46,027 nucleotides of DNA from a virus: IMG/VR virus record IMGVR_UViG_3300008267_001029, positions 1 to 46,027 of that record; one strand, written 5' to 3'. Positions 4,582 through 34,467 of this stretch are shown one piece after another. Position 1 is the stretch's first letter. The number at the start of each line of letters is the position of its first letter. The position numbers and the translations under genes were made by a program. The notes under the pieces are model-generated. The model was given only the letters and a program-made list of their open reading frames with translations. It did no database searches and had not been told where the DNA came from.

Positions 4582-6560
4582 TGTCAGAACTCATTAACAA
4601 AACGTTTAGAACAAACACAAAGGATGTTAACTATGTGAATAGGGACTTCACATCTTTAAAACAACAACTCATTGACTTTACCAAGCAATATTATCCTTTA
4701 TCATACAGAGATTTTAGTGAAAGTTCACCGGGCCAAATTTTTATTGAACAAGCTGCGTATGTTGGTGATGTGTTATCATATTATACCGATCAACAATTCT
4801 TAGAGAGTTTTATTCAATTTGCGGTTGATCGTAGAAACATTATTAACCTAGCTAAATTTCTTGGTTATAAACCAAAAGTTTCATCCGCATCGGCAACTAA
4901 TGTTGACATTTTTCAACTGATACCATCAATTCAAACAACCAATAACGAATATATTCCGGATGAACGTTATGCATTGATACTAAGACCATTTACACAAATA
5001 TCGAGCATAAGCGGTATAAACTTTATAGTTGAAGAAAGTGTCGATTTTACTCAAGATACACTATTTTCACCAAGAGAAATAAGTGTTTTTAATAGAGACT
5101 CAACAGGAGCTCCTCAATTCTTCTTGTTAAAGAAATCAACAAAGGCTTATTCAGGCACGATTGTAACAAAACAAGTAAGTGTTGGTGCAGCTACACCATT
5201 TTTGTCAATCAAATTGGATGAAACAAACGTATTAAAGGTGGTTAGTATAGTTGATAGTAATAATAACAACTATTATGAGGTTGATTATTTAGCGCAAGAT
5301 ACTATTCCTTTAAAAATTGATAATGTTCCGCTTACAAATCAAACTCTATCAAAGTATAGAGGAGAAACACCAAAAATTCTAAAGTACTTAAGAACCGAAA
5401 AAAGATTTGTAACAACAATTGACGAAAATAATTTTACTTATTTGCAATTTGGTGCCAATACTGAAAATTTCGAAAATACAATTATTGTACCAAACCCAAC
5501 AAACGTTGGAGTTGCTCTTTCTAATTTAAAAAATCTAAATATAAGTTTGGATGGTACGAATGTATTAAAGAGTAATTCATATGGTGTATCCCCATCAAAT
5601 ACAACATTAACAATTACTTATATTATCGGTGGTGGTGTTAATTCAAATGTAAATGCTGGAGACATCAGTAAGATTTCGTCTACGTCATTTCAAAATGACA
5701 CAACTGGTTTAACCGATAGTGAAATTTCTTTATTAAACAACGTTAAAAATTCGTTAAGAGTAAATAATGAAGAAGCTTCAACTGGTGGAGATGATGCTGA
5801 GTCCGATGAAGAGATTAGACAAAACGCAATTTTAAACTTTTCCTCTCAAAACAGAATGGTTACTCAAGATGACTTTTTGTTGAGAGTATATGCATTACCA
5901 CCAGATTTAGGTAATATTTCCAAAGCTTATGTAGAAAGTAATTTAACTCAACAAGTTACATATAATGGGTTAGTAACCGGTATAACATCAATCGATAATA
6001 ATGTTAATGTTGATTTAACCCCAATCAATCCGTTGGATAGAAGAAAGTTTTTGGAGTCAAATAATCCATTTACTAACAATCTATATTTGTTAGGGTATGA
6101 TACAAATAAAAATTTGACTACAATAAATCAAGCAACTCTTCAAAATCTAATTACTTACATAAAAAACTATAGAATACTAACAGATAAGATTAATATAATC
6201 GATGGATTTATAATTAATATTGGTGTAGAATTTAAGATTTCAGTATTTCAAGGTTTTAATAAACGTGATGTATTAAATAATTGTATTCAATCGGTAAAAT
6301 CGTTTTTTGAAATCGATAAATGGAGTTTCAATCAACCTATCAACTTGAGTCAATTAAATTTTGAAATTATGAAGATAGAAGGGGTGCAATCTGTTACCGA
6401 TATTAAAATAAAGAATCTAACTATTGACGATGGTAACTATTCACCTGTCGCCTACAATGTTAGTATCGCTACTCAAAATAACATTGTATATCCATCAAAG
6501 GATCCATCTGTATTTGAGGTTAAATATCCAAACACTGACATAAAAGGATTGGTAGTCTAA
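4581..6560 (+). CDS. gp6: Baseplate wedge subunit, gp6-like (baseplate J family)
   Basis: A 659-residue protein matching T4 gp6 in size (660) and in family features. The N terminus (residues about 15-75, YVNRDFTSLKQQLIDF and SPGQIFIEQAAYVGDVLSYY) is the typical wedge start. The central beta-rich part contains the short Gly-Gly-Gly turn (YIIGGGVNSNVNAG). Residues about 395-430 (SDEEIRQNA, NRMVTQDDFLLRVYAL) are the conserved baseplate-J core. The C-terminal domain (about 520-640) is a small alpha/beta domain as in gp6. gp6 dimers make the inner ring of the baseplate and trigger sheath contraction; this is known for T4 and inferred here. Confidence 0.9.
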   Translation: MSELINKTFRTNTKDVNYVNRDFTSLKQQLIDFTKQYYPLSYRDFSESSPGQIFIEQAAYVGDVLSYYTDQQFLESFIQFAVDRRNIINLAKFLGYKPKVSSASATNVDIFQLIPSIQTTNNEYIPDERYALILRPFTQISSISGINFIVEESVDFTQDTLFSPREISVFNRDSTGAPQFFLLKKSTKAYSGTIVTKQVSVGAATPFLSIKLDETNVLKVVSIVDSNNNNYYEVDYLAQDTIPLKIDNVPLTNQTLSKYRGETPKILKYLRTEKRFVTTIDENNFTYLQFGANTENFENTIIVPNPTNVGVALSNLKNLNISLDGTNVLKSNSYGVSPSNTTLTITYIIGGGVNSNVNAGDISKISSTSFQNDTTGLTDSEISLLNNVKNSLRVNNEEASTGGDDAESDEEIRQNAILNFSSQNRMVTQDDFLLRVYALPPDLGNISKAYVESNLTQQVTYNGLVTGITSIDNNVNVDLTPINPLDRRKFLESNNPFTNNLYLLGYDTNKNLTTINQATLQNLITYIKNYRILTDKINIIDGFIINIGVEFKISVFQGFNKRDVLNNCIQSVKSFFEIDKWSFNQPINLSQLNFEIMKIEGVQSVTDIKIKNLTIDDGNYSPVAYNVSIATQNNIVYPSKDPSVFEVKYPNTDIKGLVV

Positions 6561-19213: not shown

Positions 19214-20110
19214 ATGTTAGAAATTTCCGTAATAGATACGCTTACAAAATTGTTCAAGCACAAACCATCCATACAAAAAGGTGGTGATGAAGCTCTATTT
19301 TTTTATAAAAGAAAACTGAATATTAATACCAATACTGGATATTATCATTGTTGGGTTTGTAATTTCAGCGGAAAGAGTTTTTCAACTCTCTTGAAGAAGA
19401 TCGGCGCTCCTAAAGAATATTTTGAGTTGCTTTGTAAACACAAAATTAAATATGATGCTTCAAAGAAGACCGAAATTAAGTTGATGTTGCCTGATGGATT
19501 TAAACCTCTTTATAAAGATAACTCTGATATAGAGTATAAGCACGCACTTGCATATTGTTTTAAACGAGGTTTAACTATTCATGAGATTGTAAGATATAAT
19601 ATCGGATATTGTTCAGATGGTAATTTCAGAAATAGAGTTGTTGTTCCATCATATGATGATGGTGGTAATTTAAACTTCTACTGCGGACGAGATTTTTACG
19701 AGAGTAAGATGAAGTATCGATTATGTGAGGCTACGAAAGATATTGTTGGATTTGAATTGTATACTGATTTTAATCAACCAGTAACTCTTGTGGAGGGTGT
19801 ATTTGATGCGTTTGCAGTAAAATACAACGCTGTTCCATTGTTTGGTAAGAACTTGTCCAATAAACTCAAGATCAAGTTGATGACTTATAGACCACCGAGG
19901 GTTAACGTGTTGCTCGATAATGATGCTCTGACATCCAGTTTTAGAATATGTGAATTTCTTTTACAAAATAATATTGATACATATTTGATTCGTTTAGAAG
20001 GAAAAGATCCGAATGAAATAGGACATAAAAAAACTTGGCAATTTATAGATAGTTGTGATAGACTTACAGAAAGTGAGTTATATAGTTTGAAGCTCAAAAA
20101 TATTTTATGA
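19214..20110 (+). CDS. DNA primase (gp61-like, TOPRIM) with an incomplete zinc finger
   Basis: A 298-residue primase. Cys46 and Cys49 (HCWVCNFSGKS) are the second half of the CHC2-type zinc finger. The TOPRIM catalytic core is clear: Glu194 and Asp198 in VEGVFDAFA, then DNDA around Asp235 and Asp237, then the GKDPNEIG turn. It would make RNA primers for lagging-strand synthesis. The expected first pair, a CPxC just before the Lys-rich KRKLNIN strand, is absent: residues 28-33 run LFFYKR where related primases have Phe-Cys-Pro-Phe-Cys-His-type sequence. So zinc binding may be lost, or a few codons were lost from the sequence. Start by ORF extent; no clear ribosome site. It overlaps the next gene by four bases (ATGA). 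Confidence 0.75.
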   Translation: MLEISVIDTLTKLFKHKPSIQKGGDEALFFYKRKLNINTNTGYYHCWVCNFSGKSFSTLLKKIGAPKEYFELLCKHKIKYDASKKTEIKLMLPDGFKPLYKDNSDIEYKHALAYCFKRGLTIHEIVRYNIGYCSDGNFRNRVVVPSYDDGGNLNFYCGRDFYESKMKYRLCEATKDIVGFELYTDFNQPVTLVEGVFDAFAVKYNAVPLFGKNLSNKLKIKLMTYRPPRVNVLLDNDALTSSFRICEFLLQNNIDTYLIRLEGKDPNEIGHKKTWQFIDSCDRLTESELYSLKLKNIL

Positions 20111-23100
20111 TAGTATTAAAAAATACCAACCAAAAGATCGATAATGTCGTTCATATCGCAGACATTCATATTCGTTTGACCAAGAGACATGACGAATATG
20201 TTTCTATTTTCCAGAAATTCTACGATTCTTTGGACAAAGTAAGAAAAGTAACCAATGCTGTATTGGTAGTTGCTGGAGATATATTTCACAATAAATCGGA
20301 TCTTAGTCCTGAATGTGTAAAAATCGGAAGTGACTTTTTAAAGAATTGTGCAGACCGAATTCCTACTATCTTAACTGCTGGAAATCATGATGCAACACTA
20401 GCCAACAAGGCCAGATTAGATTGTTTGACTCCCATCGTGGATAGTCTTAACCATCCCAATTTGTATTATCTAAAAGAATCCGATGTATTTCGTTATGAAA
20501 ATATTCTTTTCAATAATTTCAGTGTATTTGATGATCCCGAGAAATACTTGTTGTATGAAAAGATTGCGACAAAATATAAGAATGAAACCGATCACCACAT
20601 TGCATTGTTTCATGGTCCAGTAAACAGCGCTGTAACCGATGTTGGTTATACAGTTAGTAGTCGATCTATCACAAACGAGTTGTTTGATGGCCATCACATG
20701 GCTATGCTTGGTGATATTCATAAACATCAGATCCTTCAAGAGTTTGATGACGTTGATAATAAACCCATCATTGTGTATGCTGGTTCTATGATTCAACAAA
20801 ATCATGGTGAAGAAATCAAAGGACACGGATTTCTTCTATGGGATCTAAAGCGTAGAGTTTTTAAACACTATGAATTAATCAATGATTATGGTTTTTATAC
20901 GATTGAAATCAACAAGGGTAAGTTGGTAACTGATATTACTAATATTCCAAAGAAGGCTCGTATACGAACCATGTGTTATGAGTCTATTCCATCACAAGTA
21001 AAAGAAGTGATGAATGATTTGAAAGGTAAGTGTGATGTTATAGAAAGTACATTTATTCGTGTTGATGAACCAACAAATGATTTGACATTAAAGAATGGTC
21101 AGATCTTTGATATTCATAACATTTTTGATGTAGACTATCAAAACAAATTAATTGAAGATAACCTTATTCTTAAGAAGGTAGAGAAAAATCTTATCGAAAA
21201 AGTTAAGGATCTAAATAAGACTATAAACAATCAGATTCCGAAGGATAAAGCTCCTAAGAATATTAGATGGAAGCCTAAGACTTTTGAATTTGACAATATG
21301 TTTAGTTATGGTGAAGGCAATTACATTGATTTTACCAAATTAAAAGGAGCTATTGGATTGTTTGCACCAAACGCTAGCGGTAAGTCTAGTATCATGGATG
21401 CTTTGGCATTTTGTGTATTTGATAAGTTTAGTAAAGGATACAAAGCTTCTCATGTGTTGAATACTCAAAAGATGAGTTTCAAATGCAAATTTAATTTTGA
21501 AGTAAATGGCGTTGATTATTTTATTGAACGTGAAGGTGAAGCCGATAAAAAGGGAAACGTTAAAGTAAAGGTTAAGTTTTACAAAATTGAAAACGGAAAT
21601 GAGGTTCCATTAAACGGCGAAGCTCGTCGTAGCACCAACGATATTATTCGTGATTATGTTGGTACATACGAAGATTTTATTCTGACCGTTCTTAGTATAC
21701 AAAATAGTAAGGCTGGATCATTTATTGATCTTGGTCAGACTGAACGTAAAGATTTGTTGTGCCAATTCATGGGACTAAATGTTTTTGATCAATTGTATAC
21801 AATCGCCAATGAAAACTTTAAGGAAACCAATACTCTTTTGAAGAATGTTAGTAAAGATCAGTTAACAGAAACTCTACAAATGGTTTCTGGTAGTATTGAT
21901 CTAAATAACAGAAACATATTTCAATATAATCTGGATATCAAAGATCTTGAAGTCAAGAAAGAAGAACAAAATAATAAGTTATTAGAGTTGTCTAATGATA
22001 TAGTAAAGACCGCAACTTTTGATTTTGATATTACTAAATTGGAATCTGAAAAGACACAATTAGAATCTAAAATAGGCACATTCGAACGTGATATAAACGA
22101 AAAGAAGACTAAATTCTCTACAATTGAAGCTCAACTTTCAGATTTATCTTCTTCTCTAAAGAATTGTGAAAATATCGAAAATGATTATGATCAATATAAG
22201 ATTTGTAAGGATAACGAGTCCAAAAAGTCTTCTGAAATAGAAAAACTTAAAGTAGTAGTTAAAAACAAAATAGATAAGTTGAAGAAGTTGGAAGATCACA
22301 AGTATGATCCTAATTGTACATATTGCGTAAACAACGTCTTCGTAAAAGATGCTATTAAAACCAAGGAAGAACTTGAACTTGATAAAAACAATGGCAAACT
22401 ATTAGTAGAAGAATACAATATTATTAAATCTAAGTTGGATGTATTTGGAGATATTGAATCTCGTTATAAAGAATGTCAACGCATTGATGGTGAAATAGTT
22501 AAATTGGAAAAGGCTAAAGAAGTTTTGTCTACAGCAATATTACGTGATGAAAATTTCAAAATCCGATTACAAAATGATTTAAATGGAGTAATTCAAAACA
22601 TTGATACTTTTTATAAGAACAAAGATATCATTGAAAACAATTCTAAACTACTTGTTAGTGTTAATGAAGTAAAATCTATTGTTAAAAACATTGAATCAGA
22701 GATTAAATTGGTCAACAATAAATTGTTTAACTCGTCCACAGAAAGGGGTAAATTGGAATTACAGCACAAAACCACAACTGATCAGTTAAATAAGGTAAAG
22801 GAGTTGGAGGATTCATATGAAGCATATAAGTTATATACTGGTATAATCAGTAGAGATGGTATACCATATGAAATAATCACAAAAACTTTGCCTGAAATTG
22901 AGAAAGAAGTTAATAATATCCTACATCAATTGGTTGAATTTACTATATCCTTACAGACTGATGGTAAGAATATTATGACTAACATTGTTTATGATGATAA
23001 GCAATGGCCTCTTGAAATGGCTAGCGGTATGGAAAAGTTTATTTCTGGCTTAGCTATAAGAGTGTCACTTATTAATATTAGCAATCTACCAAGACCAAAT

Positions 23101-23295
23101 ATTATTTGTATCGATGAAGGATTTGGCTGTGCTGATAGTGATCACTTGGGTCAGATGGGTGCTTTGTTTAATTACTTGAAACACCAGTTTGATTTTATCT
23201 GGGTGATCAGTCATTTGGATCAGATGCGTGATATGGTTGATAACCAGATTGAAATAAAAAAAGAAGGTGGATATAGCAAAGTAGTATATAAATAA
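20107..23295 (+). CDS. gp47-gp46: Single-chain recombination nuclease: gp47 (Mre11/SbcD) fused to gp46 (Rad50/SbcC)
   Basis: A 1062-residue fusion. Residues 1-340 carry the calcineurin-type nuclease motifs of Mre11 in order: DIH (19-21), GDIFH (57-61), GNHD (92-95), FHG (168-170) and GDIHKH (202-207). Residues about 390-1062 are the Rad50 ATPase: Walker A PNASGKSS (421-428), long coiled coils, a CxxC zinc hook (Cys737 and Cys740), a signature-like ASGMEKF about residue 975, Walker B ICIDEG (Asp1003, Glu1004) and a switch-type His in VISHLD. In T4 these are two adjacent genes working as a complex for DNA end resection. Here both are joined by a short linker at about 345-390. No frameshift is seen at the joint. 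Confidence 0.9.
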   Translation: MIVLKNTNQKIDNVVHIADIHIRLTKRHDEYVSIFQKFYDSLDKVRKVTNAVLVVAGDIFHNKSDLSPECVKIGSDFLKNCADRIPTILTAGNHDATLANKARLDCLTPIVDSLNHPNLYYLKESDVFRYENILFNNFSVFDDPEKYLLYEKIATKYKNETDHHIALFHGPVNSAVTDVGYTVSSRSITNELFDGHHMAMLGDIHKHQILQEFDDVDNKPIIVYAGSMIQQNHGEEIKGHGFLLWDLKRRVFKHYELINDYGFYTIEINKGKLVTDITNIPKKARIRTMCYESIPSQVKEVMNDLKGKCDVIESTFIRVDEPTNDLTLKNGQIFDIHNIFDVDYQNKLIEDNLILKKVEKNLIEKVKDLNKTINNQIPKDKAPKNIRWKPKTFEFDNMFSYGEGNYIDFTKLKGAIGLFAPNASGKSSIMDALAFCVFDKFSKGYKASHVLNTQKMSFKCKFNFEVNGVDYFIEREGEADKKGNVKVKVKFYKIENGNEVPLNGEARRSTNDIIRDYVGTYEDFILTVLSIQNSKAGSFIDLGQTERKDLLCQFMGLNVFDQLYTIANENFKETNTLLKNVSKDQLTETLQMVSGSIDLNNRNIFQYNLDIKDLEVKKEEQNNKLLELSNDIVKTATFDFDITKLESEKTQLESKIGTFERDINEKKTKFSTIEAQLSDLSSSLKNCENIENDYDQYKICKDNESKKSSEIEKLKVVVKNKIDKLKKLEDHKYDPNCTYCVNNVFVKDAIKTKEELELDKNNGKLLVEEYNIIKSKLDVFGDIESRYKECQRIDGEIVKLEKAKEVLSTAILRDENFKIRLQNDLNGVIQNIDTFYKNKDIIENNSKLLVSVNEVKSIVKNIESEIKLVNNKLFNSSTERGKLELQHKTTTDQLNKVKELEDSYEAYKLYTGIISRDGIPYEIITKTLPEIEKEVNNILHQLVEFTISLQTDGKNIMTNIVYDDKQWPLEMASGMEKFISGLAIRVSLINISNLPRPNIICIDEGFGCADSDHLGQMGALFNYLKHQFDFIWVISHLDQMRDMVDNQIEIKKEGGYSKVVYK

Positions 23296-23296
23296 T

Positions 23297-24268
23297 ATGC
23301 AAATCACAGACACACTCACCATAGAAAATAAAACACTAAATTTTACAATAGCAGAAGATGGTGAGTGTGTCTTTTTCAAAGATTTTGGAATTGACGTAGA
23401 CTATCTTATTATAGTAAAGAGTTTAGATACAGATTTAACAACTAATATTTTAAATGTTAAAATGTCTTCTGAACACAACATTTGGAAATATGGATGGCCT
23501 ATTAATGTGACTGAAGCTGGTGATAATCATCCAGGTATCCGATTTGATATACATAACGTTAATGGTGATTTAATTCTCAAAAAGACATATAGATTTAATA
23601 CAACTCAGTTTAATATCAAATTAAAGTCAAATCCATATGATGTTACATATCATCCATTTATAACATTTTTATATAATAATAAGTTTAAGTCATTATGCAA
23701 TCTTAATGAAAACGATGTTGTATATGATTTGGGTGCTAACATAGGTGCGTTTTCTTTGTTTTGTTCTAATCAAGATGTTCGAAAAATATATTCATTTGAA
23801 CCAAATAAAAATATATTTGACTATCTCAAATACAATTGTGAGAAATATTGTAACAATGTAACTTTGTTTAAAAAGGCTATATCCAATGACTTTAAGCGTG
23901 TTTCGTTTGGTAATAATGAAGGTACATTAGATGTTGGGTCTGTGGCGTGTTCTATTGTTGATAATGGTGGCATGGATGTGGTATCTGCTATTAATTTGGA
24001 GACGTTTGCGTATATAAATGATCTTGAACTACCTACATTTCTTAAAGTAGATATAGAAGGATCTGAATATAATTTTTTTGAATCTATTACTAATGATTTT
24101 ATTAAAAATTGTCACACTATATTTTTAGAATTTCACAATAGAGATGAACGACTAAATAAAATTATAGATAGGCTTACAAAATTAAATTACAAAATGTCAT
24201 TTTACGAAGATTCTGATTATGTATTAAAGCAATCTATGGGTACTATATTTTTTATCAAACAACTATGA
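23297..24268 (+). CDS. FkbM-family SAM-dependent methyltransferase with N-terminal beta domain
   Basis: A 323-residue protein. Residues 1-125 are a beta-rich domain of unknown type (contains NIWKYGWPINV). Residues 135-323 are an FkbM-type methyltransferase: SAM motif VVYDLGANIGAF (141-152), the acidic strand end FEPN (167-170), and KVDIEGSEYNFF (250-261). FkbM enzymes usually methylate sugar hydroxyl groups. It starts 1 base after the nuclease stop and overlaps the next gene by four bases (ATGA), opening the sugar-modification cassette. The substrate is not shown by sequence; an O-methylated glycan is the natural inference. Confidence 0.82.
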   Translation: MQITDTLTIENKTLNFTIAEDGECVFFKDFGIDVDYLIIVKSLDTDLTTNILNVKMSSEHNIWKYGWPINVTEAGDNHPGIRFDIHNVNGDLILKKTYRFNTTQFNIKLKSNPYDVTYHPFITFLYNNKFKSLCNLNENDVVYDLGANIGAFSLFCSNQDVRKIYSFEPNKNIFDYLKYNCEKYCNNVTLFKKAISNDFKRVSFGNNEGTLDVGSVACSIVDNGGMDVVSAINLETFAYINDLELPTFLKVDIEGSEYNFFESITNDFIKNCHTIFLEFHNRDERLNKIIDRLTKLNYKMSFYEDSDYVLKQSMGTIFFIKQL

Positions 24269-26277
24269 AGAAGTTATTATTTGTCGCACCACATTTGTCA
24301 ACAGGTGGCCTACCACAATTTCTGCTTAAAAAGATTAAGTCTTTAATTAAAGACTATGATGTACACTGCATTGAATATGCAGATGTTACAGGCGGACAGT
24401 TTGTGGTACAACGTGATCAGATTAAAAATATCTGTGCTGCTAGGTTTTACACGTTATATGACAACAAGGAAGAAATATTAACAATTATCAACAAAATAAA
24501 TCCGGACATTATACACTTTGAAGAAATGCCCGAGTATTTCATGGATATGTCTCTTGCGTCTAAGATTTATGATAAGGATAGAAAATATTTTATTGTAGAA
24601 ACATCACACGATAGCAGTTTCAATTCTGATAATAAACGAGTTTTGCCTGATCAATTTCTTTTTGTTAGCAAGTTTCAAGAACAAAATGTAAAGAAACTTC
24701 CGGTTAATTCTAGAGTGATAGAATATCCGGTAGAAGTAAAAATTCGTAAGAATCGTGAACTGGGTCTTAAGGAGTTGGGTTTAGATCCTAGTAAAAGACA
24801 CGTAATGCATGTTGGTTTATTTACGCCACGTAAAAATCAAAAAGAATTTATAGATTATGCCAAAGCAATGGAATACGAGAATGTTCAGTTTCATTGTATT
24901 GGAAATATGGCTGATAACTTTAAGTTTTATTGGGAACCATTGATTAATGACTTACCAAGTAATGTAAAAGTTTGGGGTGAACGAAAAGACGTACATAACT
25001 TTTATAGTTGTATGGATTTGTTCTTATTTACTAGCAGAGGTCATGCAAACGATAAAGAAACAGCACCAATTGTTATTAAAGAGGCTATTTCTTATAATAT
25101 GGCGAGTTTATTTTATAATTTACCCGTTTATTTAAACAGATATTCTTGTTATGAAAATGTGTCTTATTTAGATGAAGTAAATTTTGAAAAAAATGTTCAA
25201 TCGATTCGTGATAGATTGTCGGGAGTTAAACCATCATACAAAGAAGATGATAAAGATTTCATTGCTGTTATATCAACACATCCAAACTATAAAATAGTTG
25301 AAGAAACAACAATCAAAGCTGTAAAACAAATTAAAAAAGCTGGAGTCAAAGTAATTTTGACATCACACTATCCTGTTAGTAATGATTTACAAACGTTAGT
25401 AGATTATTGTATTTATGATAAAAATAATCCAATGATTACGCACAACTTTTATGAAAATTGGTCGTTTATAAATCAATTTCATGATATAAGAGTACATTTA
25501 CCATCGTGTAGGGCTAATTTATATCATGGGGTAGGAGTTGCATTAAATTATTACAATGGAATATCTTTGGCTAAAACATTAGGATATAAAAACGTGTTTG
25601 CATTTAACTATGATGTTGTAATATCCGAAAAAGATTTTCTAAAATTAGAATATATAAAAAATTTAATGAAAACTAAAAAAGGTTTCTTTTTCTACGACAA
25701 AGCATTAGAAGGGGATACATTTAAAACAGTGTTTCATGCTATTAATACAGAATTTTATTTGGAAAATTTTGAATATTTTACACAAAGTTCATATGAAAAG
25801 TTTGTTAAAGAAAAAAATATATCAAATGGACTTGAACAATTTTATTATAATAGATTATTAGATTTTAAGAACGATCTATACATCGATTATTCAAACAATG
25901 AAGAGTCATTTTTTAATAATAGTGAAATTAATATGTTCTCTATGTGTGAATACCTATCGGTATTACCGATGACAAACAATCCAAATAAGTTTGTATGCAT
26001 AAGCAGTTTTAATAATAAAGTTGATAAAAAATATAATAGAATTATTGTATATAAAAATGATGTGATGATTCATAAACAAGAAAAAGAGATAGTATCTGAT
26101 GGTTGGTGGCATATTGAAGTTGACTTTGAACCAAATAATGAATATAAAGTAGTAAATACTTTACACGAATCAAATAAACTTGAAACATCATGCTCGGAAA
26201 CTATTTTAAAAGAAATTACGCATGTATTTTCTAAACTAGAAGACTTAAAAAACAACGGACATTTTACTGCTAAATAA
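24265..26277 (+). CDS. Two-domain glycosyltransferase (GT-B GT4-like plus GT-A-like domain)
   Basis: A 670-residue protein. Residues 1-320 are GT-B/GT4-like: N-terminal LLFVAPHLSTGGLPQFL with the Gly-Gly loop, VMHVGLFTPRKNQKEF (about 180-195), and the acceptor-side acidic motif region ETAPIVIKEAISYN (about 267-280). Residues about 345-560 look like a second, GT-A-like transferase: it starts IAVISTHPNYKIVEETTIKA and has FAFNYDVVIS (about 446-455), where the metal-binding acidic motif would lie. Residues about 565-670 are a small beta domain with SDGWWHIEVDF. Two transferases in one chain could add two sugars in turn. Donor and acceptor are unknown. The GT-A reading is weaker than the GT4 one. 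Confidence 0.72.
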   Translation: MKKLLFVAPHLSTGGLPQFLLKKIKSLIKDYDVHCIEYADVTGGQFVVQRDQIKNICAARFYTLYDNKEEILTIINKINPDIIHFEEMPEYFMDMSLASKIYDKDRKYFIVETSHDSSFNSDNKRVLPDQFLFVSKFQEQNVKKLPVNSRVIEYPVEVKIRKNRELGLKELGLDPSKRHVMHVGLFTPRKNQKEFIDYAKAMEYENVQFHCIGNMADNFKFYWEPLINDLPSNVKVWGERKDVHNFYSCMDLFLFTSRGHANDKETAPIVIKEAISYNMASLFYNLPVYLNRYSCYENVSYLDEVNFEKNVQSIRDRLSGVKPSYKEDDKDFIAVISTHPNYKIVEETTIKAVKQIKKAGVKVILTSHYPVSNDLQTLVDYCIYDKNNPMITHNFYENWSFINQFHDIRVHLPSCRANLYHGVGVALNYYNGISLAKTLGYKNVFAFNYDVVISEKDFLKLEYIKNLMKTKKGFFFYDKALEGDTFKTVFHAINTEFYLENFEYFTQSSYEKFVKEKNISNGLEQFYYNRLLDFKNDLYIDYSNNEESFFNNSEINMFSMCEYLSVLPMTNNPNKFVCISSFNNKVDKKYNRIIVYKNDVMIHKQEKEIVSDGWWHIEVDFEPNNEYKVVNTLHESNKLETSCSETILKEITHVFSKLEDLKNNGHFTAK

Positions 26278-26279
26278 CT

Positions 26280-28424
26280 ATGAAAATAATGCAAGTACAT
26301 TTAGGATTGTTACCAATTCCACCAAATGGTTGGGGTGCTATTGAAAAAATAATTTGGGATTATTATCTTCAATTAAATAAAAAGGGATTAGAGTGTGAGA
26401 TCAAATATCTTAATGATATAAGTTATAATGATAATACTATAGTTCATGTGCATGTAGCTAATTTAGCTAATGAATGTTATAAACGAGGCATTCCTTATAT
26501 ATTTACTCTACATGATCATCATGCATACTTGTATGGCAAAGACTCAAATGTCTTCAAAGAAAATTTACAAGCTATTGAGAATAGTGTTATATCTACATGT
26601 CCAGCAAAATATTTGGTTGATTATTTTGGTAGTAAAAAACTACGTTATTTTTCTCATGCGGTAAATACAGATATATTTAAACATAAAGAATATATTAAGG
26701 ATAACAACAAATTATTATGTGTTGCAAATAATGGTTATGCCAATAATCAATCATATGATAGAAAAGGTTTTACATTTGCAATTCAAGCTGCAAAAGAATT
26801 AAATTTACCAATTACAATTGCAGGTCCAAGTAATAATAAGAAATTTTTTGAAACATTAGATTCTTCGTTAAGTGAGTATGAAAAATTAACGAAAATTTTT
26901 GATTTAGACGAAGATGGTTTAATTGAGTTATATAACAAACATAGTATCTTTATTCACGCATCTGAATTAGAAGCTGGACATCCAAACTTAACTCTACTAG
27001 AAGCGATGTCAAGTGGTCTTCCTGTAATTGGAACTTTTGAAAATAAAAACTATGATGGCATGATTGTGGTTGAACGAAATGTTCAACAAATCAAAGAAGG
27101 TATAACCGATGTATTAAATAATTATGATAAATACAAAACAAACGCGTTAAATGCGGCTAAAAATAATTCTTATAATAAACGTGTAGATGAACTTATTGAA
27201 TTATATAGTGAATATACAAATAAATTATTCGCTAGTAAATTTGACATCGTGTATAACAATTTAGTTAAAAATAAAAATAAACCTATTTTAAAGACTGAGG
27301 TTTATTATTCATTTAATGATAATGCGTTTGTAGAAATAAAAAATTCTGAGAATATAGACGAAACTTTTGAAGTATCATTCAAAAATAGAATAACAAATCA
27401 GATACTATATAGCACAACGCTTAAAAATGGTTGGTGGGGAAGATGTGATTATTCGTACTATATACCATATAACTTAACAATTAAAAGTAATTTAACAGGT
27501 AAAACAATATTAGATTATGATTTGGATTTGACGGGGAAAAATGTTTTAATTCAGTATGATACACCAGCGCTGGGTGATCAATTATCTTGGATTCCGGTGG
27601 CCGATCAGTTTAGAAGAAAACATAATTGTAATCTATACGTCAAAATTCCAAATTTGATAGAATGTTTTAAAAAGAAGTATAAAAATATTACATTTTTAAA
27701 TATGGATGAATCTATACCAGACTTATTTGCTACATATAAGCCTGGGTGGTATGTAGATAATCAATCTATAAATGAAAAAAGATGTGTGAATGATGTTCGT
27801 AAACAACCTCTTCAAAAAGTAGCATCAGATTATTTGGGATTACCTTATTTTCCAGAACGTCCTTTGTTAGATTTTGAATTAAAAGCCTCCCCATATAAAA
27901 AACCAACAGTAACTATTGCCACACAAAGTACATCTCAATGTAAGTATTGGAATCATAAGGGAGGTTGGGATGTTGTGATAAAATACTTAAATGAAAAAGG
28001 ATTTGATGTAGCTTGTATAGATAGAAACTATAGCTGGGGTAATGGTGATAATATGAATGTTATGCCATCTAACGCAATAAATCTTACAGGTGATATGCCA
28101 TTAACCGAACGTATGAATCAAATTTATCATAGTAAATTTTTTATAGGTTTACCATCCGGATTATCTTGGTTATCATGGGCAATCGAAAAACCAACAATTA
28201 TGATAAGCGGATTTTCGTATGATTATACTGAATTTGATACTCAATACAGAGTTCAAAATAAAAATGTATGTATCGGATGTTGGAATGATAATTATTTTGA
28301 CAGAGGTAATTGGATGTGGTGTCCAAAATCCGAAAAAAAGGAAATATTTGAATGCACCAAATCTATTACTCCACAAATGGTTATAGAAACAATTGATCGT
28401 TTAATTAAAGATAATAATTTATGA
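26280..28424 (+). CDS. GT4 glycosyltransferase fused to an autotransporter-heptosyltransferase (BAHT/TibC-like) domain
   Basis: A 714-residue fusion. Residues 1-320 are GT4-like (LLPIPPNGWGAIEKI, then ELEAGHPNLTLLEAMSSGLPV with the donor-binding Glu). Residues about 335-420 are a beta domain with KNGWWGRCDY. Residues about 420-714 read as the bacterial autotransporter heptosyltransferase family: IQYDTPALGDQLSWIPV, SKFFIGLPSGLSWLSWA, PTIMISGFS, TQYRVQNKNVC, and the four-cysteine iron finger Cys664, Cys667, Cys681 and Cys692 (CIGCW, WMWCP, FECTKSI). In TibC the family moves heptose from an ADP- or GDP-heptose onto Ser of beta-solenoid adhesins. Presence in a phage, and fused to a GT4, is unusual. 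The acceptor here is unknown. Confidence 0.82.
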   Translation: MKIMQVHLGLLPIPPNGWGAIEKIIWDYYLQLNKKGLECEIKYLNDISYNDNTIVHVHVANLANECYKRGIPYIFTLHDHHAYLYGKDSNVFKENLQAIENSVISTCPAKYLVDYFGSKKLRYFSHAVNTDIFKHKEYIKDNNKLLCVANNGYANNQSYDRKGFTFAIQAAKELNLPITIAGPSNNKKFFETLDSSLSEYEKLTKIFDLDEDGLIELYNKHSIFIHASELEAGHPNLTLLEAMSSGLPVIGTFENKNYDGMIVVERNVQQIKEGITDVLNNYDKYKTNALNAAKNNSYNKRVDELIELYSEYTNKLFASKFDIVYNNLVKNKNKPILKTEVYYSFNDNAFVEIKNSENIDETFEVSFKNRITNQILYSTTLKNGWWGRCDYSYYIPYNLTIKSNLTGKTILDYDLDLTGKNVLIQYDTPALGDQLSWIPVADQFRRKHNCNLYVKIPNLIECFKKKYKNITFLNMDESIPDLFATYKPGWYVDNQSINEKRCVNDVRKQPLQKVASDYLGLPYFPERPLLDFELKASPYKKPTVTIATQSTSQCKYWNHKGGWDVVIKYLNEKGFDVACIDRNYSWGNGDNMNVMPSNAINLTGDMPLTERMNQIYHSKFFIGLPSGLSWLSWAIEKPTIMISGFSYDYTEFDTQYRVQNKNVCIGCWNDNYFDRGNWMWCPKSEKKEIFECTKSITPQMVIETIDRLIKDNNL

Positions 28425-30061
28425 AAATAGTAGGTAGTTACATGGGTCCACACGATGCCGGCGTAAGTTTAATTGAAAATAATCAAATTATAGCGTGTTA
28501 TACCGAGGAAAGATTCACTAGGATAAAATCAGCACACGCAGGTTGTATATTTCCAACCTTTAGTTTAGAATCTCTACAAAAAGATTTTAAATTTGACATC
28601 AACGACCCAAATGTAAAATTTGTGTGTGCTAAGCCTGTAGCTATTCAACTTGAAGAAATACGTAATATTGTAAAAAGTAGAGATGTTAAACTAATAGGAC
28701 ATGAGTATGCACACGCATGCGGCGCTTATTATACATCTGGTTTTAATGAAAACACATTAGTTGTTGCATATGATGGTGGTGATTGTGGCGATGATAATTG
28801 GACTAGTCTGACACATCAAAACTATGATCATTATAAACCGTGGAAAACTAGGGACGATAATCAAACAGCTTGTTATATTGTAAAAAATGGAAAGTTGATT
28901 GAAATTGGAAATAGACTTAAACATGGAAGTATTGCAAATATGTGGTATTTGATGTGTTTAATATTTGGTCTAACTCCATTAAAAGATGAAGGTAAAATAA
29001 TGGGTCTTGCAGCCCAAGGACATTTTGATCAAAAAATATTTGATACATTAAGTTTCTTTGTTAAAAACGATATGATAAAAGCATCGTGTATGATACGAGA
29101 AAAATATGTATCTTTGTTAGCATCATTATCGAACGAAGATGCTTTAAATTTAAAAAGAAATCTTGCATATAATCTACAATATCTAAGTGAAATTACAATT
29201 TTGGACTTCATTAAAAAATATTATGATGAATATGGTCCATTCGATAATCTATGTTTAGCAGGAGGCATTTTTGCAAATGTAAAAATAAATCAAAAGATAA
29301 ACGAATATCTTCCATTCAAAGATATTTGGGTTTATCCTGCTATGGGCGATGAAGGTTTGTCTTTAGGCGCTGCGATTGCATATGGAGTAGAACTTGATCA
29401 ATTTACAAATAGAAGAATTGATAATGTATTCTTTGGAAAGAAAACATCCGTTGAAGATACACAAGCCGATATAAATAATTTTCAAGCAAATTTTGGTAAA
29501 TCTATAATTTCAGAGGATTTAGATTTTAATAAAATTGGTGATTATTTGGTCGGAGGGAAAGTTATTGGTATATTTGATGGATCTACAGAATATGGCCCAA
29601 GAGCTTTAGGTTCACGTTCTATTATTGTAGAACCAACTAGAAAAGAAACGCATGCACATATAAATCAACGATTAAAACGTGATGACATTATGCCATTTGC
29701 CCCAATTATAATGGAAGAACATGTTGAAGATATTTGTTATGTCTATAAATCAAAACGTGCATCGGAGTTTATGACTCTGTGTTACACAATTAAAGAAGAG
29801 TGGGCTAATAAAATACCTGCAGTTATAAATTTTTATGATAATACAGCTAGACCACAAGTGGTGAACAAAGATAGACATTCTTTATTTCACAAAATACTTT
29901 CGTCATATAATTTTAAATCCAAGATACCTGTATTAATGAATACAAGTTTTAATGGTCACGGAGAACCAATTATTAACTCTCCAAATCATGCTTTGAAACA
30001 TCTATCGGAAGGAACGATAGATCTTTTAATTATCAACAACAAAATTTATAAATTATCATGA
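28421..30061 (+). CDS. Carbamoyltransferase, NodU/CmcH/TobZ family
   Basis: A 546-residue protein with both family domains. The N-terminal Kae1-like domain opens SYMGPHDAGVSLIEN, then has the metal-binding HEYAH (His94, His98) and the VAYDGG strand (Asp118), LAGGIFANVKIN and GDEGLSLGAA. The C-terminal YrdC-like domain contains YGPRALGSRSI (about 390-400), the PFAPI segment and VLMNTSFNGHGEPI. Length is normal for the family (540-600). These enzymes use carbamoyl phosphate and ATP to carbamoylate a sugar hydroxyl. It overlaps both neighbours by ATGA, so it is made with the glycosyltransferases. A carbamoylated sugar is the likely end product. Confidence 0.9.
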   Translation: MKIVGSYMGPHDAGVSLIENNQIIACYTEERFTRIKSAHAGCIFPTFSLESLQKDFKFDINDPNVKFVCAKPVAIQLEEIRNIVKSRDVKLIGHEYAHACGAYYTSGFNENTLVVAYDGGDCGDDNWTSLTHQNYDHYKPWKTRDDNQTACYIVKNGKLIEIGNRLKHGSIANMWYLMCLIFGLTPLKDEGKIMGLAAQGHFDQKIFDTLSFFVKNDMIKASCMIREKYVSLLASLSNEDALNLKRNLAYNLQYLSEITILDFIKKYYDEYGPFDNLCLAGGIFANVKINQKINEYLPFKDIWVYPAMGDEGLSLGAAIAYGVELDQFTNRRIDNVFFGKKTSVEDTQADINNFQANFGKSIISEDLDFNKIGDYLVGGKVIGIFDGSTEYGPRALGSRSIIVEPTRKETHAHINQRLKRDDIMPFAPIIMEEHVEDICYVYKSKRASEFMTLCYTIKEEWANKIPAVINFYDNTARPQVVNKDRHSLFHKILSSYNFKSKIPVLMNTSFNGHGEPIINSPNHALKHLSEGTIDLLIINNKIYKLS

Positions 30062-30585
30062 ATTCAAAAAATGGTTATTTCAACGTAGACTACGCCACAT
30101 CTATACCAAAATTAACTTTTAATAATATACCTCAAAAATATTTAAATCATGAATTGCATTATGTTATGAAGAGTGAAAAACATCAATATTATTCTACAGA
30201 TGGTGTAAAACCAGGATATTGGTATAAAAAATTAGACTTTATACCATTAGATTTTGATTTTATTAAATTGTATGCTTTTCAGATTGATACCGGTGTAGAA
30301 CTAATAGATGAATTACAATTCAAGATAACAGATTTTAATTTCATGTTTAATTTAAAAACCAATAATATAGATGAAGCAAATACTTGGTTTAAGTATATTG
30401 ATTTGTTTAATAAGGTATACGGAACACGTTATAAATATAGTGTAAATATAACTACATTAAATGAAAATTGTGATAATTATGAAATTTCCAGAGAAAAATA
30501 TAACGTGATGTACTCATTTCCAAAAAATGAGTTAGAAAAAATTTCATCGTTAGATATAATAAAAAAAATACTTGGTAATATTTAA
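30058..30585 (+). CDS. Unknown protein, last gene of the sugar cassette
   Basis: A 175-residue, Asn/Lys/Tyr-rich protein. Residues about 45-75 (STDGVKPGYWYKKLDF) resemble the beta-domain segments with a GWW motif in the two glycosyltransferases just upstream, so it may be a free-standing copy of that accessory or sugar-binding domain. The rest (85-175) is helical. No catalytic motif seen. Overlap of four bases (ATGA) with the carbamoyltransferase ties it to the cassette. Function unknown; the shared-domain idea is an inference from a short match. Confidence 0.5.
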   Translation: MNSKNGYFNVDYATSIPKLTFNNIPQKYLNHELHYVMKSEKHQYYSTDGVKPGYWYKKLDFIPLDFDFIKLYAFQIDTGVELIDELQFKITDFNFMFNLKTNNIDEANTWFKYIDLFNKVYGTRYKYSVNITTLNENCDNYEISREKYNVMYSFPKNELEKISSLDIIKKILGNI

Positions 30586-30606: not shown

Positions 30607-30625
30607 AGTGAGATGTTCACTTTTT
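30607..30625 (+). terminator. Weak hairpin plus T-run after the sugar cassette
   Basis: AGTGA (30607-30611), loop GATGT and TCACT (30617-30621), followed by four more T residues. The 5-pair stem is short and AT-containing, so it can act as a weak terminator at best. It lies between the cassette and the sheath gene. Confidence 0.3.
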
Positions 30626-30632
30626 CTGGCAC

Positions 30633-30640
30633 TATTTATA
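30633..30640 (+). promoter_or_regulatory. TATTTATA element upstream of the sheath gene
   Basis: Exact TATTTATA 32 bases before the likely sheath start at 30672, with a clear ribosome site between. Spacing fits a late promoter better here than at the other copies. Confidence 0.4.
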
Positions 30641-30657
30641 AATTAAACATAACTTTT

Positions 30658-30664
30658 GAAAGGA
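30658..30664 (+). promoter_or_regulatory. Ribosome binding site deciding the sheath start
   Basis: GAAAGGA lies 7 bases before ATG 30672. It is one of the strongest Shine-Dalgarno sites in the window and argues that translation starts at 30672 rather than at ATG 30613 or ATG 30712, even though the 30672 frame closes after 15 codons. Confidence 0.65.
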
Positions 30665-30671
30665 ATAAATT

Positions 30672-33600
30672 ATGCCAATACAAGAAGGTGGAAGATTTTC
30701 ACGAAGTAGCGATGCTTGAGCAACGTTTCGGTGTAGCTGATGGGGTTTATTATGGTCCATACACAGCCAAAGAGTATCTGATTCAACAAGGTGTAGTAAC
30801 CGTTGTACGTATCGGCGGTCTAACCGGATACTGGCAAAAAAATCCATTGGTCGTATATGCTGAACCAGGTTACTGGAACAGAAATAGTGACTTGGGCGCT
30901 TTGACCACATCATCATTCATGTACTTGGATAGTGATGCTTATACATCAAATCTAATTCTTGAATATAGTTCATCAGCAATTAGCTCAAGTACAACAGGTC
31001 TTCGTGGTAGTGTGTCAAATAGAGTTTCTTCATCATTGAGTATAACTCGCGCGACAAATACAGAAATAGATCAGTTCCTAGTGTCAATAGGTTGGCCAGA
31101 TGCATCAAATAGTTCAACACTATCAGCATCTCTAGCCGCATCTGGTAGTAAGGGTAAATTGTTCAAGATTGCAACTACAAGAAACAGCTATATCTTTAGT
31201 GGTTCTGTTGTACAACAAAGTAAGAAAGTTCAACCAAGTGGTGGTGCAAGCGAATATACATTAGCTAACTTTGACTACGATAAGTCGATTGTTACTGGTG
31301 TAGTTTCCGCATCTGTGGGTGCAACTAAATATGAGATCTCATTTAATACGAATGATTTGAAGGATACTTTAACTTATTACAAATATCTAAGTTCTTCATA
31401 TACTTTAAGTGGTGATGATGTAACTTATGGTTTGGTATTTGGTAAATATGCCGCAAACAATGTTCTAGATTTTAGTACCGCCACGATTAGTAATGTAAAA
31501 TCACAAGGTGCATTCGTATACAGATATGATACATCACGTTTGAGACTAAATGGTGTAGTTAATGGTAAGTTTGCTCCAAAAGCAGCTACAAGTAACTATC
31601 CAGTTGGATATAATGGTACAGGTGGATCACTAAGTGGTTCAGTATTGTATGCCGGTAAACAAGTAAATCTAGGTACAGTAACCACAACCAATAGTTCTGG
31701 TGCAAATACATATTTGTATAGAAAGATTACTGGTGTAACACCAACCGCTGGTGCATTTGCTGGTTATTACTATCTAAGTTCAAGTGTTCAATCACAAGAT
31801 GTAAGTCCAGAAGTTAAGATCTCAACAGCTTTCAACGAAAGTTCTGAAACCGTTGCTTATTTTTCAAGTTCAATCATCTCAAGTAGTAAGGTAACACTTG
31901 ATTACGATACCACTACATTTGATGTAAATGGTACTTTGTCACTATATAGCTCAAGCTTCAAATCTATTAGAAGTTCAACAAGTTGTGGTTCATCACTACA
32001 ATTCTTGGGTCTAGTAGGTGGCGCTTATGGTGATTTTGATGGTACATTCACAAGTCAAGATAATTCTGGTGGTGATCCATGTAATCCAAATACCTCTGCA
32101 AGAACCAAGATGGTGTTGGCTGTTTTGAATAATACTCAAAATGGTTCAACTCAGTTCAATAACAGATACGAAGTATTTGGTTTTGATACATCAACCTTGA
32201 GTCAATTGACAAGTTCAGTATTCCCATACAAGGGATTGATCAATCCAAACGAAAATGCTTATCAATTGATTTTGCGTTATAACTTCGCAAATGACGATGG
32301 TTCAACAAGTGCTGGCACATATGGTTATTATGACTTCACCCTAAATGAAAGTGATAATAATTATATTGCCAACGTATTTGGATTCGATCCTACAGCTGGT
32401 AATCCTGCTAAACAAATTGCTGGACAAAAGGTAGAAGCTGCTTACAACTACTTGTTGTTCAATGATAGTATTCAAAGATTCGTTGCAGAAAAGACTCGTC
32501 CAAGTGCAGAAGGTGGTGGTTGGAAGTTATCTGCTAAAACTGCTCCTGAAACAGGATTTGCAGTTGGTGAACCACTCAAGTTTGTTGATCAATATAGCAC
32601 AAATTTGAATGCAGGTGATAGTCAATTCGGTATTACAAATGCTTATACTCCATGGATTTATTCTCAAAGAATTGCTCCATTTAAGGGTAGTGCTGCGGCT
32701 GCTTCTACACCAACTAAGTTCCAATTGTTTAAAGTACATACTCTAAGTGATGGTACTTTGAGTAACAAGAAGTACAAGATTGAAATAAGCAACGTTAAGT
32801 TGTCTGGTACAGTCCCAGGCAGTGATTGGGGTTCATTCACACTAGCAGTACGTGCTTATAGTGATACAGATAAACGTCCAAAGTATTTGGAAATTTATCA
32901 AAACTTGAATCTAAATCCTGAATCTGCTAACTTCGTTGCTCGCAGAATTGGTGATAGATATGCTTACATTACATTCGCTGGTAAGATCATCGAGTTTGGT
33001 ACATATGCCAACTTGAGTCAGTTCATCAGAATTGAAATGGCTGATGGTCTATATCCAGAAGTATCCGTTCCATATGGATTTGAATCTTATTCAACTCCAG
33101 TTGCTGGTACTTTGGCAGATATTATTCCACCAGTAAGATACAGCAAAGCAAGTATCTGGTCATTGGCTCCTGGTAAATATGCTTGTGGTACGGTCTTCAA
33201 CGATGTTCCTCAAGCTGACGACGAATTGGTATCATTGTATCCAACATCATCTGCTAATGTAGGTGTATATAACGATACATATCAATACTTCAAACCACTA
33301 CCAAGTAGTGTAAATGGTATCAACATTGACTTCGACTTGGAAGACAAGACTTGGGGTACTGATAGTGCTAAGTTCTATGCAAATGGAACTGGTTCACTAC
33401 TATCTCCAACATTGAGTGGTAGTATTCCAAGTAACTACGATCCAGTTAACGAATCAACTTATGTTAAACTACGTAAGTTCTTGGTTGGATTCCAAGGTGG
33501 ATTTGAAGGTCAATGGCCAGCAATTCCAATCGCTATTGGAAGTGATATTACCGCTGGTAATACACAAGGTCTAGATTGTACAAATATCAACAGCCCAGGT

Positions 33601-34467
33601 AGTATTGCTTATAAACAAGCAATTGCTGCTCTAGGTAATGCTGATGAATTTGATATCAACTTGATCGTGTTGCCTGGTATCTTCCGTGAACAACACAGCT
33701 ACGTAACTGAGATTACTATCGATATGTGCGAAGCTCGTGGTGATTGTTTCTACATCATGGATAACATTGTGTTTCCAGCAAGTAACCAAACCGTTGGATT
33801 GATTGACTCCGCCATCAACAGCGTAGCAACAATTGATAGTAACTATGTAGGTACATATTATCCATGGGTTAAGATCCTAGATACAAATACCAACAAGGTT
33901 ATTAGTGTTCCACCTTCAGTAGTGTTGCCAGCAGTTTATGCTGCTAACGATAACGCTGCTGCTGAATGGTACGCACCAGCTGGTCTAAATCGTGGTGGTA
34001 TTCCAACCGCAGTACAAGTACTTGATCGTTTGACTCATAGTGAACGTGATACCTTGTATGAAGGTCGTGTAAATCCAATCGCAGCATTTCCTGGCCAAGG
34101 TATTTGTGTATGGGGTCAAAAGACTCTACAAATTGCCCCAAGTGCTTTGGATCGTATCAACGTTCGTCGCTTGTTGATCAACTTGAAGAAGTTCGTCGCA
34201 AGTTCAAGCAACTACTTGGTATTCGAACAAAACGTAGCTGCTACAAGAAATCGTTTCTTGAGCATCGTAAATCCTTACTTGGAATCAGTACAACAACGTA
34301 ATGGTATCTACGCTTATCAAGTTAAGATGGATGAACAAAACAATACTCCTGACCTAATTGATAGAAATATCCTATATGGTCAAATATTCATCCAACCAAC
34401 TAGAACTGCTGAATTCATCATCCTTGACTTCAACATACTTCCTACGGGCGCTCAATTTTCTGCCTAA
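30672..34467 (+). CDS. gp18: Tail sheath protein, gp18-like, with an N-terminal frame change
   Basis: Major contractile-tail sheath subunit. The C terminus (34240-34460) is diagnostic: VNPYLESVQQRNGIYAYQV, then DEQNNTPDLIDRNILYG and IFIQPTRTAEFIILDF. Near the N terminus, EQRFG, YTAKEYLIQQG and VVTVVRIGG match gp18 positions about 50-80. The protein is about 1260 residues against 659 in T4, because of long Ser/Gly/Thr-rich beta insertions. Start is a problem. ATG 30672 with a good ribosome site encodes MPIQEGGRFSRSSDA and stops at TGA 30717. The main frame, open from 30613, needs a +1 shift or restart at ATG 30712. About 35 residues expected before EQRFG, with the usual Pro-Gly-Val arm, are missing. 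Confidence 0.85.

Follow-up and report, generated by a model that had tools for sequence, protein, structure and literature searches.

What does a phage gain from a protein whose C-terminal half resembles the bacterial autotransporter heptosyltransferases (BAHTs), and which acceptor would such an enzyme modify? The question is raised by a gene in the 46,027-base IMG/VR record IMGVR_UViG_3300008267_001029 (hereafter the window, meaning the whole stretch analysed), which portal, terminase and sheath matches placed among the T4-like myoviruses; in the terminase comparison, its closest cultured relatives were Microcystis phage Mel-JY01 (55%) and Flavobacterium phage immuto (53%). The gene product joins a family 4 glycosyltransferase (GT4) to a BAHT. 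We regard it as somewhat probable that the latter glycosylates serines on virion fibres built of (Gly-Ser/Thr-Ser)n repeats, and that GT4 enzymes extend and a methyl- and a carbamoyltransferase cap the resulting glycan. Its genomic partners suggest long Gly-Thr-Ser repeat fibres as the substrate instead of the adhesins after which the family is named. The protein and its two domains are as follows:

26280..28424, plus strand: GT4–BAHT fusion protein of 714 residues (profile and sequence matches; AlphaFold model with a predicted local distance difference test score, pLDDT, of 86.5)
26280..27269, plus strand: N-terminal GT4 domain, residues 1–330 (PF00534; structural matches to MshA and BshA; E231 and E241)
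27294..28400, plus strand: C-terminal BAHT/TibC domain, residues 339–707, comprising a beta-barrel and a GT-B catalytic domain (TIGR04414; domain model)

The open reading frame (ORF) was translated without internal stops, and the 714-residue product contained the elements listed in a preliminary description of this DNA, namely ALGDQLSW from residue 430, FIGLPSGLSWLSWA from residue 621, PTIMISGFS from residue 638 and cysteines 664, 667, 681 and 692. The TibC/BAHT-like C-terminal half proposed there was recovered by a hidden Markov model search, in which residues 339–707 matched TIGR04414 with 315.6 bits (E = 4.2e-94; curated cut-off 200), and by an end-to-end alignment with the sequence of the TibC crystal structure (E = 5.8e-66, 35% identity). 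Other families fitted this half less well, with 33.4 bits for the GT9 Pfam model and 21.6 bits for lipopolysaccharide (LPS) heptosyltransferase I. A model of the BAHT domain, computed from an alignment of 103 relatives, reached a pLDDT of 96.5 and a predicted template modelling score of 0.92, and was superposed on TibC (PDB 4RAP) with a template modelling (TM) score of 0.91 and a root-mean-square deviation of about 2.0, including the N-terminal beta-barrel; LPS heptosyltransferases followed far behind TibC, with a TM-score of about 0.5. The GT4 assigned to the same chain was likewise borne out, as residues 160–287 exceeded the cut-offs of GT4 Pfam models (PF00534, 46.5 bits against 26.4; E = 3.9e-12) and the N-terminal half of the full-length AlphaFold model resembled the GT4 enzymes MshA and BshA. 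Residues E231 and E241 were invariant across 26 relatives; the usual spacing of the GT4 glutamates is E-x7-E, and that of E231 and E241 is two residues longer. Sequence and predicted structure together argue strongly that this phage protein combines a GT4 with a genuine BAHT/TibC-family domain in its C-terminal half.

The functional residues were assessed by alignment with TibC, which transfers heptose from ADP-heptose to serine and binds its iron through C339, C342, C358 and C370 (PMC4358343). Three features were located in the window:

27576..27578, plus strand: D433, counterpart of D110, the proposed catalytic base of TibC (aspartate in 56/56 viral and 94/94 bacterial sequences of the alignment)
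28032..28061, plus strand: beta-hairpin thumb, residues 585–594, with D-N at the tip in place of F265-V266 of TibC (alignment and domain model)
28269..28355, plus strand: Cys4 iron-finger motif, C664, C667, C681 and C692 (TibC alignment; all four kept in 56/56 viral sequences)

The four cysteines, which the preliminary description had likened to the iron finger of the family, aligned one to one with C339, C342, C358 and C370, in that order. The finger was modelled with a pLDDT of about 87–97 in the domain model, for which the deeper alignment resolved the region; the full-length model, with values below 50, was not used there. The donor pocket comprises T551, K555, R611, P625 and W630, so that the counterparts of T226, K230, R286 and W305 of TibC are kept and P625 provides the proline found at the D,D-heptose selectivity position; F690 also features among the window residues in the alignment of active site and finger. 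The catalytic aspartate, the threonine, lysine and tryptophan, and the four cysteines were invariant across the 56 viral sequences, and the counterpart of R286 was kept in only 12 of them, compared with 92 of the 94 bacterial ones. The window protein is thus among the most TibC-like viral members in this pocket and, unlike most of them, retains all TibC donor contacts; since it also has D433, ADP-heptose would be a reasonable donor. The thumb lacks the hydrophobic tip F265-V266, which builds the TibC dodecamer; many bacterial BAHTs vary there too. A gap replaces the tip in 30/56 viral members compared with 4/94 in the bacterial set. This change agrees with a changed acceptor, short of proving it.

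The distribution of the enzyme was surveyed by a profile scan of viral contigs, in which at least 353 stretches encoded BAHT relatives; 80 of these were retained and, together with the window and matches from phage collections, yielded 59 distinct BAHT proteins. About half of them, some 30 distinct phage proteins, carry the same GT4 in front of the BAHT, and 28 proteins matched the GT4 half of the window protein by BLAST, with identities of 42–81%. The remaining viral BAHTs stand alone or belong to larger fusions with other glycosyltransferase and methyltransferase domains, of up to 1,544 residues. The 735-kb phage LR756501 encodes the same fusion (39% identity over 99% of the query), and Mel-JY01 combines a GT4, a methyltransferase-like stretch and a BAHT in one protein of 1,226 residues, annotated only as methyltransferase FkbM. 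Among 80 bacterial loci, a GT4 was fused to the BAHT in L138 only and was encoded by an adjacent gene in L096 and L122. The latter contig, binned as a Winogradskyella metagenome-assembled genome (MAG), has separate GT4 and BAHT genes and a tube-like gene and, because a tail sheath follows, is a phage fragment. A tree computed with a quick maximum-likelihood method and drawn with midpoint rooting separated 56 viral and eight MAG sequences from 87 cellular BAHTs, TibC included, by a branch with 100% support in the SH-aLRT (Shimodaira–Hasegawa-like approximate likelihood ratio test), the sole measure of support. No report of phage BAHTs was found in a literature search, from which subscription papers were mostly out of reach.

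The acceptor was sought among solenoid autotransporters, the adhesins that the preliminary description names as BAHT substrates. A search of 45 phage records, which included three long deposited genome records but not the window, itself a fragment, gave no match above the cut-off of TIGR04415, the acceptor repeat of classical autotransporters, and a sub-threshold match in one record. The repeat was also absent from the genomes of all five bacterial members of the viral-side branch, whereas 11 of the 14 genomes sampled from the autotransporter branch contained it. Heptosylation of a host autotransporter, the classical reaction, would fit the TIGR04414 equivalog score and the full TibC donor pocket, but the separate branch, the altered or missing thumb and these searches make it very unlikely, and the autotransporter gives way to a different partner, the (Gly-Ser/Thr-Ser)n proteins.

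Near viral BAHTs, ORFs with long (Gly-Thr/Ser-Ser)n arrays were found, with up to 956 triplets. Scored as (G[ST][STND]) repeated at least six times, and with BAHT loci counted if they spanned at least 8 kb, the pattern occurred in 27/52 BAHT loci, compared with 0/67 random viral loci (p = 1e-12), 1/48 BAHT-less sheath loci (p = 5e-9) and 0/24 loci fetched through other glycosyltransferases (p = 2e-6); the Fisher p-values of this test and of the reverse one below assume more independence than the related loci have. The median distance between repeat and BAHT was 3.8 kb, several BAHT subclades were covered, and 17/44 BAHT loci had repeats within 5 kb on each side. This forward count is exploratory because the idea came from the same loci. 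More independent were the reverse test, in which a BAHT was found in 7 of 120 repeat loci compared with 0 of 120 random ones (p = 0.014), and the comparison with bacteria. There, the pattern was present in four of 80 BAHT loci (L102, L112, L125 and L155), all on the viral-side branch. Each of the five bacterial members on that branch is accompanied by a small ORF resembling a repeat lipoprotein, four by the strict pattern and the fifth, L104, with a short array recognised by eye; these ORFs begin with a signal-peptide-like and lipobox-like segment, continue with GTS/GSS repeats and lie from next to the BAHT to about 2 kb away. Taken with the distribution of TIGR04415, this consistent pairing supports a split in acceptor between the two branches. 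Some of the small repeat lipoproteins of L102, L104, L112, L125 and L155 end in acidic tails, and a DUF6502 gene lies directly upstream in L104 and L125. In Mel-JY01 (L003:2-3052), a repeat-rich frame with 162 G-X-Y triplets was noted on the plus strand, where the deposited annotation mostly has genes on the opposite strand.

Besides the relatedness of the loci, several observations weigh against repeat fibres as the acceptor. Repeats were out of reach in 25/52 BAHT loci, and 113/120 repeat loci had no BAHT inside their short stretch. No repeat protein was found in the 46-kb window, in two of its relatives, G049 (46 kb) and G050 (91 kb), or in the 636-kb phage LR756504; the IMG/VR records, however, may be incomplete. 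Both the virion location of the repeat proteins and their glycosylation are putative. Longer records of two window relatives, G001 and G002 (from L005 and L008), encode cassette proteins about 58–82% identical to those of the window, as well as a repeat protein. In G001, this protein is complete, with 1,129 residues arranged as an N-terminal domain, several hundred GTS-repeat residues and a C-terminal domain. The copy in G002 starts downstream of the BAHT at a distance of about 35 kb, which would be past the end of the window. The relatives L268 and L269 also encode a repeat protein. The window phage is predicted to have its own repeat protein past the right end of the window.

The GT4–BAHT gene stands third in a tightly packed row of five that forms a 7.3-kb cassette (23297–30585), bordered by an SbcD–SbcC fusion on one side and the tail sheath on the other:

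20107..23295, plus strand: SbcD–SbcC fusion, left border (Pfam and PHROG matches; adjoins the sheath in the empty sites of L181 and L184)
23297..24268, plus strand: FkbM-type methyltransferase, optional member (PF05050, 47.8 bits; not in L006 and L268)
24265..26277, plus strand: GT4 with a second domain, 670 residues, constant partner in window-type cassettes (PF13692 and PF00534 over cut-off)
28421..30061, plus strand: NodU/TobZ-type carbamoyltransferase, optional member (PF16861, 170.5 bits; PF02543, 115.6 bits; phrog_1601)
30058..30585, plus strand: protein of 175 residues, with neither a Pfam nor a PHROG match, found in close relatives only (four)
30613..34467, plus strand: tail sheath, right border (PF04984 and PF17482; phrog_23)

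The left border gene joins SbcD and SbcC homologues in a single protein of 1,062 residues. In L181 and L184, whose sheaths are 92–93% identical to that of the window in their C-terminal part, the sheath comes straight after SbcCD, which constitutes a natural empty site. The cassette is reduced to two genes in L006, lacks FkbM in L268 and the last two genes in L269, and in L183 and L185 combines the GT4–BAHT with another, short BAHT; L183 also has a confirmed GT2 gene. Because of this variation and the empty site, the cassette is considered modular and dispensable. A relative of the 670-residue GT4 precedes the GT4–BAHT in the window group, in L006, L269 and L138, and in the 735-kb phage, where it adjoins the fusion; the same partner also lies alongside the separate, neighbouring GT4 and BAHT genes of L122 and L096. 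The second, shorter BAHT (about 270–281 residues) was placed after the GT4–BAHT and directly before the sheath (L183:5967-6812, L185:6572-7417 and L192, about 5362-6174). A protein of 1,013–1,023 residues without a Pfam match fills the site between SbcCD and sheath in L191:4048-7089 and L194:4450-7521. Late-promoter-like motifs (TATAAATA) at the cassette edges were considered and discarded, as 13 in the window compared with 10 expected was not significant.

A sheath, terminase, portal, tube or hub gene was codirectional in 17/44 BAHT loci of at least 12 kb, and the fusion of the 735-kb phage has genes for a tail fibre, a baseplate wedge and a sheath in its vicinity; both findings favour a virion target. 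This target could also be another virion protein—sheath, tube, capsid or a different fibre—with the repeats linked merely through a shared hypervariable fibre region, as might be suspected from the BAHT loci without repeats and from the sheath, which adjoins the cassette in many loci and is rich in serine and threonine (19% in the window). We consider this unlikely, given that sheath length and Ser/Thr content do not follow the presence of a BAHT, that BAHT-less sheath loci seldom carry repeats and that the same branch pairs with repeat lipoproteins in bacteria, which have no tail there. The N-terminal region of the sheath was ruled out as the acceptor, since L181 and L184 have long, Ser-rich sheaths and no BAHT. 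At 30613–30710, the 5' end of the window sheath gene is about 140 bases shorter than in L005 and L179, and the listed ORF aligns with its relatives only from residue 31 (their residue 49–58); this reflects an assembly error or a real lesion, and the relatives have intact copies. The two empty-site records, which are partial, showed no repeats in 61 and 53 kb, as fits repeat fibres as the acceptor.

Remodelling of host surface glycans or proteins during infection, for instance to block superinfection, would suit an accessory and variable cassette, the more so as phage glycosyltransferases are often read in this way and such a role has been proposed for those of pelagimyophages (PMC7029224). The mixture of glycosyl-, methyl- and carbamoyltransferases would suit a polysaccharide as well. 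No lipid carrier, flippase or membrane glycosyltransferase was identified among the scanned cassette genes, however, and the BAHT domain retains the iron finger, which touches the protein acceptor in TibC; with the cassette placed among virion genes and the classical acceptor repeat not found, this role is also improbable. Sets of glycosyl-, methyl- and carbamoyltransferases are further known from base-modification loci, but hypermodification of phage DNA is scarcely credible here: BAHTs are protein serine transferases, near relatives manage without the cassette, and a TET/JBP oxygenase was not found in 32 records, in a search that had no positive control and did not cover dCMP hydroxymethylase.

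For the favoured glycosylation of repeat fibres, we infer the following sequence of steps. In the cytoplasm, the BAHT half would attach the first sugar to serines of a virion protein; heptose donated by host ADP-heptose is the most likely sugar, and a long fibre of (Gly-Ser/Thr-Ser)n repeats, encoded at another place in the phage genome, the most likely acceptor. Plausibly, the fused GT4 would extend this sugar, as would the neighbouring GT4 protein, and the FkbM methyltransferase and the carbamoyltransferase would cap the glycan. The cassette would be swapped or lost at its fixed site, as expected of a surface trait under diversifying selection. Supply of the heptose precursor by the host is assumed, because among 31 records no nucleotidyltransferase match exceeded the HldE cut-off and a SIS/GmhA-type gene exceeded its own cut-off only in the 636-kb phage LR756504. 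In that phage, the GmhA-like gene (LR756504 430122-430517, L172) and a stand-alone BAHT are about 27 kb apart. Synechococcus phage SynMITS9220M01 (L517:6001-10018) hints weakly at heptose chemistry: next to its annotated genes for a heptose kinase, a phosphoheptose isomerase and a heptose epimerase lies a glycosyltransferase related to the GT4 over the first 100 residues of the latter. Collagen helices without proline can be stabilised by O-glycans attached to Gly-X-Thr repeats, so stiffening or shielding of the fibre is a possible benefit.

More broadly, we see an even chance that a second BAHT branch, of phages and some bacteria, is specific for (Gly-Ser/Thr-Ser)n proteins—giant fibres in phages, lipoproteins in bacteria—and in phages works within exchangeable cassettes of glycosyl-, methyl- and carbamoyltransferases, which would make the fibres glycoproteins with variable sugars. 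If so, many aquatic phages, including those of 636 and 735 kb, would carry a dedicated, exchangeable system for fibre glycosylation, and the acceptor range of a well-studied family would reach beyond autotransporters. Outside mycobacteriophages, few descriptions exist of O-glycosylated proteins in phage particles, and no report of collagen-like phage fibres glycosylated by such enzymes was found, with subscription literature mostly outside the search. The enzyme assignment is strong, and repeat fibres replace autotransporters with moderate confidence as the acceptor, a class that would be new for BAHTs. The proposed pair of enzyme and substrate is directly testable, including in a compact bacterial version with one enzyme and one small repeat lipoprotein.

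Among known systems, the proposed acceptor recalls BclA of Bacillus and other collagen-like surface proteins, which bear O-glycans on Gly-X-Thr/Ser repeats; BclA belongs to a bacterial spore coat, not to a phage, and we know of no BAHT among the enzymes that glycosylate such proteins. The TibC/AAH enzymes (TIGR04414; PDB 4RAP and 4RB4; PMC4358343) share with the window protein the order of beta-barrel and GT-B domain, the catalytic aspartate, the Thr/Lys/Arg/Trp donor contacts, the selectivity proline and the Cys4 finger, at the identity and TM-score given above. The window protein differs from them in its fused GT4, its branch of the tree and the D-N thumb tip, and the viral branch in its repeat-protein partners, no autotransporter acceptor having been found. 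In mycobacteriophages, phage-encoded glycosyltransferases reportedly glycosylate capsid and tail tube (PMC12363180), and Che8, Corndog and Myrna (Freeman et al. 2023, via PMC12363180 and PMC11256854) resemble the present proposal in pairing phage glycosyltransferases with glycosylated virion proteins; these are other phages, and BAHT enzymes and repeat-fibre acceptors do not appear in the accessible parts of their descriptions. The reported collagen glucosyltransferase of Mimivirus (PMC9546862) differs in belonging to a giant virus of amoebae and in acting on galactosyl-hydroxylysine, and offers a parallel for the proposed modification in that a virus glycosylates collagen-type repeat proteins.
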